This document shows, in pieces, positions 40,798 through 52,379 of a stretch of DNA of 64,000 nucleotides; position 1 is the first letter of the stretch; each line of letters begins with the position of its first letter. A program made the translations under genes and the position numbers. The stretch is taken from the NCBI GenBank assembly GCA_020054865.1, contig JAIHAR010000004.1:1-64000 (forward strand), in the 5' to 3' direction. The stretch is from Deferribacteraceae bacterium (lineage in GTDB: Bacteria > Chrysiogenota > Deferribacteres > Deferribacterales > Deferrivibrionaceae). The notes beneath the pieces are model-generated. The model made no database searches. It was not told where the DNA came from and saw only the letters and a list, made by a program, of their open reading frames with translations.

Positions 40798-41499
40798 ATG
40801 ATAATTTTTGCTGCCGATAGTATCCCTTTGCCTGTATTTGATATAGGAGTAAGACAGGCGGCATCCCCTCAGGATGTTTCTGTTACATTGCAGATAATAT
40901 TTCTGATTACAATATTATCCCTTGCTCCGGCGATATTAATATTGCTTACTTCATTTACCAGGATAATTATTGTATTTTCCTTTTTAAGAAATGCAATGGG
41001 CACACAGCAGATGCCCCCTAACCAAGTCCTGGTCGGACTTGCGCTGTTTTTAACATTTTTTATTATGTCACCTGTTTTTAGTGAAATAAACAGTAAAGCA
41101 CTTACACCTTATCTGGATAACAAAATTAACTTTACAACTGCCCTTGAAGAAGCAAAAAAACCGCTAAGAAAATTTTTGCTATCAAATACAAGGAAAAAAG
41201 ATGTACTGATGTTTCTTGAGATATCAAACTATGAAAGACCAAAAACAGCGGATGATATACCCGATCTGGTTTTGATACCTGCTTTTGTTGTAAGTGAATT
41301 GCAAACTGCCTTTGAAATGGGATTTTTATTGTTTTTACCGTTTTTGATAATAGATTTTGTCGTGGCAAGTGTCCTTTTGTCGATGGGTATGATGATGTTG
41401 CCACCGGTTATGATATCTTTGCCTTTTAAAATTTTACTGTTTGTTCTTGTGGATGGGTGGTCTTTGATAATTGGTTCGATTGTAAAAAGTTTTATGTAA
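40798..41499 (+). CDS. fliP: Flagellar export gate protein FliP
   Basis: 233 residues from ATG 40798, but that ATG has no ribosome-binding site. The frame stays open to ATT 40756, 4 bases after AAGGTGG, which would add MKKKIIFFLIFLFP and give a complete cleavable signal peptide ending IFAAD, as expected for FliP. The family motifs LLTSFTRIIIVFSFLRNAMG, PPNQVLVGLALFLTFFIMSP and PFLIIDFVVASVLLSMGMMM are clear. FliP builds the export pore with FliQ and FliR. fliQ follows. Confidence 0.95.
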   Translation: MIIFAADSIPLPVFDIGVRQAASPQDVSVTLQIIFLITILSLAPAILILLTSFTRIIIVFSFLRNAMGTQQMPPNQVLVGLALFLTFFIMSPVFSEINSKALTPYLDNKINFTTALEEAKKPLRKFLLSNTRKKDVLMFLEISNYERPKTADDIPDLVLIPAFVVSELQTAFEMGFLLFLPFLIIDFVVASVLLSMGMMMLPPVMISLPFKILLFVLVDGWSLIIGSIVKSFM

Positions 41500-49472: not shown

Positions 49473-49544
49473 TATGTTATTTAAGTTGAATAGTTTTAAA
49501 AAAGCTGTAATAATATTGTAAAATATGCATATATAAAGGGACGT

Positions 49545-50621
49545 ATGGAAAATTCGTTGTACTGTATTTTTTATAAGACTATTGATTTTTCAGGTGGCAA
49601 TTTTTCTATTGTTACCACAAAAGAGATTAGCAACACAGAAGGTGCATTATTTCAAAAATTAAAATCCGAATCTGAAAAACTTATCATTTTAAATTTTAAA
49701 GCATTAGTTGACAAAGATACGGATTCTATAACAAGGCAGGTGTGTGTTTTTGAAAAAGATTTTTCCGGTATTGAGTTTCTGGTAAATATACATGTTATAA
49801 ACAGGACACCTGAAAAACTCTATCTTTGCGAAGTATATATTGAAAATACTATTTATTTGAAAGAGGTTTTTGAGCATTTGATTCATAGCCGGATAATCAG
49901 TTTTGTAATCTATAACTTTGATAATATTCTGTTTGCTGATAAAGGTTTTACCTGTTTAACGGAATACAGTGAAGATGAACTCAAAAATATGGATTTTTCA
50001 TCTTTTTTTAATGAGTCTTTTAAAGAGGTTATAAAGAATATTTCAGACAAACGAAGCAAAGGCTTTAACATAAATCAGGAGTTTCACCATTTGCCGATTT
50101 ATACAAAGAGCGGCTATTTTAAGTATGTAAATGCCTATGATACCACAATTTCATATTTAGGTCAAAATGTCGGCTGTATGTTTATTGTGGATGTTTCCGA
50201 AGAGGTTTCAAGTAAAGACTTATACAGTATTTTGTATAATTTAAACTCGCTAATAAGAAAACGAATTGTTAGTCTTGAAGAATTTTTTAATTTTTTGTGC
50301 AGTGAGATTGTAAAGGATAAAAATATCAGTTTTGCATGGGTTGGGAAAATTTATAAGAGAAAAAGGCCTAAAATAATTGCAAAGGCAGGCTATGAGGAAG
50401 GTTATCTGGACTATTTTATGTCAGTTTTAAGCTCTGATAAATATGATATTGGACCCACATTTTCATCGGTGAAAGAGAATAAAATAGTGATAAATCAAGA
50501 CACAAAAAGCAATCCGAATATTTTGCCGTGGCAAGAGGAGATGCTGAAAAGAAACTACCATTCTTCATGTGCAATCCCCATAAAATATAAAAATGAATAT
50601 TTTGTTTTAAATCTTTATTAA
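49545..50621 (+). CDS. PAS-GAF sensor fragment, N-terminal part of a split c-di-GMP protein
   Basis: 358 residues. A poorly recognised N-terminal region (1-115), a PAS domain (about 118-230, VIYNFDNILFADKGFTCLTE) and the first part of a GAF domain (about 245-358, FAWVGKIYKRKRPKIIAKAG; SSCAIPIKYKNEYFVLNLY). The frame ends in TAA at 50619, exactly where a GAF domain should continue. The downstream bases in the same frame read NKQYFFNETL and run straight into the next ORF. So this is the front of one interrupted gene, not a complete protein. Confidence 0.8.
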   Translation: MENSLYCIFYKTIDFSGGNFSIVTTKEISNTEGALFQKLKSESEKLIILNFKALVDKDTDSITRQVCVFEKDFSGIEFLVNIHVINRTPEKLYLCEVYIENTIYLKEVFEHLIHSRIISFVIYNFDNILFADKGFTCLTEYSEDELKNMDFSSFFNESFKEVIKNISDKRSKGFNINQEFHHLPIYTKSGYFKYVNAYDTTISYLGQNVGCMFIVDVSEEVSSKDLYSILYNLNSLIRKRIVSLEEFFNFLCSEIVKDKNISFAWVGKIYKRKRPKIIAKAGYEEGYLDYFMSVLSSDKYDIGPTFSSVKENKIVINQDTKSNPNILPWQEEMLKRNYHSSCAIPIKYKNEYFVLNLY

Positions 50622-50651
50622 AATAAACAGTATTTCTTTAATGAAACACTT

Positions 50652-52379
50652 ATGGACACATTAATTGCACTGCAAGAATCAATTGCCGGTCAGGTAAACA
50701 ATCTAAATGAGATCGGTTTTAAGAATATTTTGTTGAGTACTGTTGAAAATACGTATGATTGGGTAATGATTACGGATAAAAACGGTATAATCGAATATGT
50801 CAACGATGCAGTGGTAACAATTAGCGGATTTTCCAGAAAGGAGATAATAGGGAAAACTCCGAGGATATTCAAATCAGGGCTTTATGATAAAAGCTTTTAT
50901 GAAAATTTATGGAAAAAGATTACCAACGGAGAGATTTATAAAGGGGCTGTAACCAATAAAAGAAAAGATGGCAGTTATTTTCAGGTGGATAATACAATTG
51001 TTCCTGTTGCTCAAAATGGGAAAATAATAAAATTTGTATCCATTGCCAAAGATATTACAAAAGAAGCTTATCTTGAAGAGGAGGTATTCAAATTTAAATA
51101 TACCGATTTGCTAACTGGAGTTTTAAACAGGGAAGGATTTATTGAAAATGTCAACAAACAGCTTGAGGATTTTTACAAGTCAAAAGAAACAGCAATTGTA
51201 GTTGTTTTTGATATATATGGATTTGCGATGCTAAATGAACGATACGGCTTTGAAAAGTGCAATGAAATTTTGAAAAAGGTATCTAAGGAGCTTGTAGGTA
51301 ACTTTTATAGAAAAGATTTGGTGGCAAGGGTCGGAAGTGATAGTTTTGGAATATTCTTGCGACTTGATAGTGATGAAAATTTGCTCAAAGTTATCGATAA
51401 ATTTTTAAATTTTTTTAAAAGGCCGGTTTTTGTGGATAAAGATAAGCTTTTGATTGATATAAATATTGGGGTTTCAGTATGGGATGGTGGAATAGGCGCT
51501 ACCGATTTGCTTGCAAGGGCAGAGGCAGCCTTAAATCTCTCAAAAACGGAAGGGGCAAACTGTGTTAGAGTATATAATGAAAAAATAAACAAAAATGTTA
51601 TGGAATATTTTGATAAAGTGGGGTTAATCGAAGAAAGTCTTGAAAAAGAGTTTTTTGTATTTCACCTTCAGCCTATTGTTTCTTCAGCTACCCTAAAAAT
51701 TGAATCTTTTGAAGCTCTTGTGAGAATCAATCACCCTGAAAGGGGACTGATATATCCTGATTTTTTTATAAATATAATAGAGAAAACTAAGCTTTTGGAA
51801 AAATTTGAATTGTTGCTTTTTAAAAAAATTGTGGAATATTTGCAAACAGTCCACTTACATTTAAATAAATACCTGAAAATATCTGTAAATATTAGCGCCA
51901 ATTCGGTATCTTCAGGAAAAATACTCGAATGTGCAGATATAGTCCCTCTTAATCTCAGACAGTTTATAAATCTTGAAATTACTGAAAGGGTATTTTTAAA
52001 GGATAGTGGAAAAGTAATAGATATCATCGATAGGCTAAAGAAACTTAATTTTATGGTGGAGATAGATGACTTTGGTACAGGATATTCAAGCCTTGGAATG
52101 ATTGAGCAGGTATCTTTTGACATACTCAAGATAGATATATCGTTTGTGAGAAAAATGCTTGAGGATGAAAAAGTAATGGGTATTGTAAAAACTATCGTAT
52201 CTCTCGGTAAAAATCTCGGCCTTCAAACTATAGCAGAGGGTGTTGAGACTAAAGAGCAGGCTGAAATATTAAAATCAATAGGCTGTGACTTTCTGCAGGG
52301 TTATTTCTTTTCAAAACCTATCCCCCTTGAAAATGCAATAGATATCTTCAAAAATCAGCCGCATTTTCATTTGAGTTGA
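50652..52379 (+). CDS. PAS-GGDEF-EAL protein, C-terminal part of a split c-di-GMP phosphodiesterase
   Basis: 575 residues in the same frame as the preceding fragment, with no ribosome-binding site before its first ATG. GAF tail helix, PAS (about 25-140, VMITDKNGIIEYVNDAVV), a degenerate GGDEF domain (RVGSDSFGIFL in place of GG[DE]EF) and an EAL domain with FEALVRI, NLEITER, IDDFGTGYSSLG, LKIDISFV and AEGVETKEQA, all catalytic residues present. The likely activity is c-di-GMP hydrolysis. Joined with the front part it would be about 944 residues. Confidence 0.85.
   Translation: MDTLIALQESIAGQVNNLNEIGFKNILLSTVENTYDWVMITDKNGIIEYVNDAVVTISGFSRKEIIGKTPRIFKSGLYDKSFYENLWKKITNGEIYKGAVTNKRKDGSYFQVDNTIVPVAQNGKIIKFVSIAKDITKEAYLEEEVFKFKYTDLLTGVLNREGFIENVNKQLEDFYKSKETAIVVVFDIYGFAMLNERYGFEKCNEILKKVSKELVGNFYRKDLVARVGSDSFGIFLRLDSDENLLKVIDKFLNFFKRPVFVDKDKLLIDINIGVSVWDGGIGATDLLARAEAALNLSKTEGANCVRVYNEKINKNVMEYFDKVGLIEESLEKEFFVFHLQPIVSSATLKIESFEALVRINHPERGLIYPDFFINIIEKTKLLEKFELLLFKKIVEYLQTVHLHLNKYLKISVNISANSVSSGKILECADIVPLNLRQFINLEITERVFLKDSGKVIDIIDRLKKLNFMVEIDDFGTGYSSLGMIEQVSFDILKIDISFVRKMLEDEKVMGIVKTIVSLGKNLGLQTIAEGVETKEQAEILKSIGCDFLQGYFFSKPIPLENAIDIFKNQPHFHLS

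Follow-up and report, generated by a model that had tools for sequence, protein, structure and literature searches.

Layout of the interrupted gene and its predicted product

Between the ATG at 49545 and the stop codon at 52377-52379, the forward strand of the window (the whole stretch of 64,000 nucleotides of DNA that was analysed) contains a reading frame of 944 codons, open throughout except for a single TAA at 50619-50621. The open reading frames lying on both sides of this codon, ORF1 and ORF2, occur in the same frame, and the lengths of ORF1, the stop, the intervening codons and ORF2 add up to the total (358 + 1 + 10 + 575 = 944). The coordinates of both frames, their common phase, the TAA, the intervening NKQYFFNETL, the two lengths and the total of 944 residues given in the initial annotation were all confirmed on the sequence. 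The locus comprises the following features:

49535..49540, + strand: Shine-Dalgarno-like AAAGGG of ORF1, read from the sequence, with a modest pairing of -4.7 kcal/mol against the anti-Shine-Dalgarno sequence
49545..50621, + strand: ORF1, 358 aa, with a weak PAS in the N-terminal region and most of a GAF domain; the start Met is common to both same-genus orthologues
50271..50684, + strand: GAF_2 domain (PF13185), residues 243-380 of the read-through frame, with the stop inside (Pfam scores)
50619..50621, + strand: premature in-frame TAA at residue 359 (sequence; aligned orthologue residues given below)
50622..50651, + strand: ten sense codons NKQYFFNETL from the stop to the next ATG, which align with the orthologues
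50641..50643, + strand: out-of-frame ATG, 11 nt upstream of the ORF2 start (sequence)
50652..52379, + strand: ORF2, 575 aa, with the end of the GAF domain, a PAS, a degenerate GGDEF and an EAL domain (sequence, Pfam)
50757..51062, + strand: second PAS domain (PF13426; Pfam)
51099..51560, + strand: GGDEF domain with the degenerate signature SDSF (domain match and motif check)
51630..52319, + strand: EAL domain, with the motif residues EAL, N, EITE, DDFGTG, LKID, AEGVE and QGY present (motifs, alignment to 4rnh)

The GAF domain is the part of the protein directly affected by the stop. With ORF1 alone, GAF_2 scores 24.3 bits, below the Pfam cut-off of 28.6 bits, and the match reaches only position 108 of the 136 positions of the profile. 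With an unknown residue in place of the stop, the score rises to 35.4 bits and the match crosses the stop up to profile position 131. In an AlphaFold model of the read-through GAF domain, which is of low confidence (mean pLDDT 49) and was taken only for the order of strands and helices, the stop sits at the end of the last predicted strand, before the C-terminal helix, in agreement with the earlier placement of the stop in the last GAF strand. A search of the PDB with the GAF stretch returned 0 matches.

With respect to the catalytic part, the EAL domain (PF00563) scores 202.6 bits, and both the EAL fold and its conserved motif residues are found, the latter matching those of 4rnh, a solved GGDEF-EAL enzyme. 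The active-site signature GG[D/E]EF of diguanylate cyclases is replaced by SDSF and varies among the orthologues, and a phosphodiesterase rather than a cyclase is therefore predicted. Judging from these motifs, the encoded enzyme would hydrolyse c-di-GMP. The genome possesses six EAL loci, i.e., five besides the interrupted gene.

Intact orthologues and the age of the lesion

Of 60 related genomes, 4 possess an orthologue in which the N-terminal half is represented, namely G001 and G002 from the same genus (50% and 48% identity, respectively) and G009 and G016 from the same order (44-45%). In G001, G009 and G016 it consists of a single uninterrupted gene of 930-966 aa, and in G002 it runs uninterrupted up to the end of a contig, the remainder occurring on another contig. 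All four display a sense codon at the position of the stop and a frame that stays open across the site, the aligned residues being Ser, Ser, Ser and Ala. The same-genus copies align over the stop without any gap, e.g., FVLNLY*NKQYFF here (the asterisk denotes the stop) and YVLNMYSNKEYFF in G001, whose serine codon is one base change away from TAA. The original codon had been proposed to be TCA or TTA; the relatives speak for the serine codon TCA and against the leucine codon TTA. The idea of one gene split by a single nonsense codon is thus supported by the orthologues, none of the intact ones ending and restarting as two genes at this position. The case rises above the chance adjacency of two frames because GAF_2 spans the stop and because the alignment of four orthologues runs through this position, where each has a sense codon.

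Scanning a collection of genome contigs with ORF1 revealed no relative, and a second scan with the alignment of the orthologues as a query retrieved only distant PAS-GGDEF-EAL proteins. In G003, a homologue of 558 aa (L039:4666-6342) with the layout PAS-GGDEF-EAL stands on its own; it starts downstream of the stop site and follows a histidine kinase-receiver gene, and the PAS-GAF sensor is absent. Such an arrangement shows that the C-terminal module is able to exist alone.

The presence of intact orthologues in relatives, together with one disabling change here, corresponds to what is expected of a unitary pseudogene. Further decay, which is typical of old pseudogenes but need not accompany a recent one, was not observed: no second stop or frame shift occurs in the 944 codons, and in relative-rate tests with two outgroups (eight comparisons; largest chi-square 3.0, not significant) neither half evolved faster than the intact orthologues. 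This is also expected of a recent lesion, so that it leaves membership of that class undecided. The lack of both a second lesion and any acceleration points to a recent lesion, and the lack of acceleration on either side of the stop, taken together with the intact EAL motif residues, suggests that the gene was functional until recently.

Same-frame pairs and translation signals

To appreciate how unusual the arrangement is, 456 kb of the same genome were sampled as a background: the window, the remainder of the contig that holds it, and 20 further stretches. Because a search for interrupted genes by coding score did not recover the present site when set more strictly, a plain list of same-frame pairs was used instead. 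Two neighbouring ORFs in the same frame are not unusual per se: the 456 kb contain 26 pairs in which each side spans at least 150 codons. As expected of separate genes, 24 of these pairs have their next possible start no more than 24 nt past the stop; the only outliers are the 50619 site (30 nt) and a pair located on contig C42 (162 nt). Another candidate, at 41497, was discarded as an interruption and corresponds to a normal fliP-fliQ boundary.

The C42 pair is the one other comparable interruption in the sample. It consists of a polysaccharide deacetylase-glycosyltransferase frame (L052:279-2288, - strand) with one in-frame TGA at L052:1266-1268. The same TGA occurs in G002, where the protein is 100% identical over 485 residues, while G001 (86%) is devoid of this stop; because two separate assemblies share it, the TGA is not an assembly error. 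The surrounding surface-polysaccharide region of about 11 kb (L052:833-11611 aligned with L094:1-10776) is 94% identical to G002, its flanks are 77% identical, and other sampled regions range from 74 to 86%. This cluster has apparently been exchanged recently between two species of the genus, as judged from these identities.

At the interrupted gene, the ATG of ORF2 at 50652 exhibits 0 kcal/mol of Shine-Dalgarno pairing, the lowest value among the 32 genes of the window (tied with three others), which bears out the earlier remark that ORF2 lacks a ribosome-binding site. The folding of the RNA downstream of the stop is ordinary (z -0.30). TAA is the most frequent stop in the long frames (39 of 66), and no tRNA that reads it was seen among those whose anticodons were read out, which comprise all but a few of the 33 tRNA genes detected in this 88% complete genome. 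A reassignment of TAA was dropped.

Origin of the stop codon and comparison with known systems

According to the reading that we favour, with a probability of roughly 0.6, the locus corresponds to a single gene, encoding a cytoplasmic PAS-GAF-PAS-GGDEF-EAL c-di-GMP phosphodiesterase, in which a recent single nonsense substitution has converted a serine codon at the end of the GAF domain into TAA. Ribosomes would halt at the TAA and release a sensor fragment of 358 residues that lacks the catalytic domain and whose GAF fold is incomplete. Little or none of the EAL enzyme part would be produced, and the regulated phosphodiesterase output of the locus would be largely lost. The stop is presumably carried by the living population, in which the TAA may be a minority allele, and it probably lowers the activity. 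However, to consider the locus as largely inactive may be wrong, by analogy with the split genes of Shigella (PMC11327459).

The explanation ranked second, which we regard as unlikely though well ahead of the remaining ones, is an erroneous base in the assembly, in which case the gene for 944 residues would be intact in the living strain. It would suit both a draft assembly of 72 contigs that is 87.8% complete and a gene free of any other decay. Substitutions are a less typical form of sequencing error than insertions or deletions. When 73 interrupted genes of a finished genome were resequenced, 28 turned out to be sequencing errors, all of them over- or undercalls, miscalls being invisible to the program of that study (PMC1852416); unlike these, the change observed here is a substitution, and no long homopolymer occurs at the site. 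Moreover, the sole other clear in-frame interruption in the 456 kb, being identical in a second genome, is not an error. A real nonsense substitution is favoured over a base error.

Other readings attribute some use to the two halves. Termination at 50621 followed by a restart at ATG 50652 would yield a separate PAS-GGDEF-EAL enzyme uncoupled from the N-terminal sensor, an improbable outcome in our view. The ORF2 start is in frame 30 nt downstream, the G003 homologue makes a viable stand-alone C-terminal module plausible, and dgcM of Shigella yields two proteins from such a layout, its second start having no canonical Shine-Dalgarno motif (PMC11327459); but ORF2, besides being devoid of a Shine-Dalgarno, starts inside the GAF domain with a Met that is not conserved among the orthologues, and the out-of-frame ATG 11 nt upstream would compete with reinitiation. 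A weak reinitiation at ORF2 is possible. Slightly less probable still is the idea that the nonsense codon was kept because it uncouples sensor and enzyme, a PAS-GAF fragment and a constitutive PAS-GGDEF-EAL enzyme then forming a new split c-di-GMP regulator. Readthrough of the TAA, whether leaky or programmed, would supply some full-length protein and appears very improbable: the downstream frame stays open and is not accelerated, and in-frame stops followed by sequences under purifying selection (dN/dS below 1) are reportedly widespread in bacteria (PMC7918605), but neither a stimulatory RNA structure nor a suppressor tRNA was recognized among the signals described above, TAA is the commonest stop among the long frames, and the stop is missing from all four orthologues. 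Readthrough, as suggested in the initial annotation, thus gained no positive evidence, and the phase variation suggested along with it has no basis in the sequence. A phase-variable switch, to which we attach a negligible probability, has nothing in its favour beyond the on/off character of a single codon: no repeat tract was found at the stop and no inverted repeats closely bracket it, and both halves remain in the same frame, with no frame shift. Nothing was seen to suggest that the stop serves the cell as a switch.

The locus is best regarded as an ordinary case of a c-di-GMP phosphodiesterase gene interrupted by a single nonsense codon, which, if real, is recent. For annotation purposes it should be entered as one interrupted gene instead of two proteins, with a corresponding correction to the EAL repertoire of the genome. 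A real stop would add to the cases in which a single nonsense change has led to the loss of a c-di-GMP turnover gene, or to its being split and retained.

Among known systems, the GGDEF-EAL phosphodiesterase 4rnh ("Motility regulator"), which we take to be of the MorA type, aligns with ORF2 through the GGDEF and EAL domains including the motif residues. The alignment is limited to these domains, to the exclusion of the sensory part, and ORF2 differs from 4rnh by its degenerate GGDEF signature and by belonging to an interrupted gene. In the c-di-GMP genes dgcE, dgcQ, dgcN and dgcM of Shigella flexneri, a premature stop likewise precedes the catalytic domain, an in-frame Met lies nearby and the rest of the gene is kept; these diguanylate cyclase genes, with their nonsense codons before GGDEF, still raise c-di-GMP, and some yield two proteins (PMC11327459). 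They belong to another organism, their catalytic domain is GGDEF in contrast to EAL here, and their products and activity have been measured. The conserved in-frame stops of bacteria (PMC7918605) share with it a constrained frame downstream of the stop, but are common to several species, whereas the TAA at 50619 has been seen in one genome only. These two parallels show the layout to be of a known kind, so that a complete loss of function should not be assumed.
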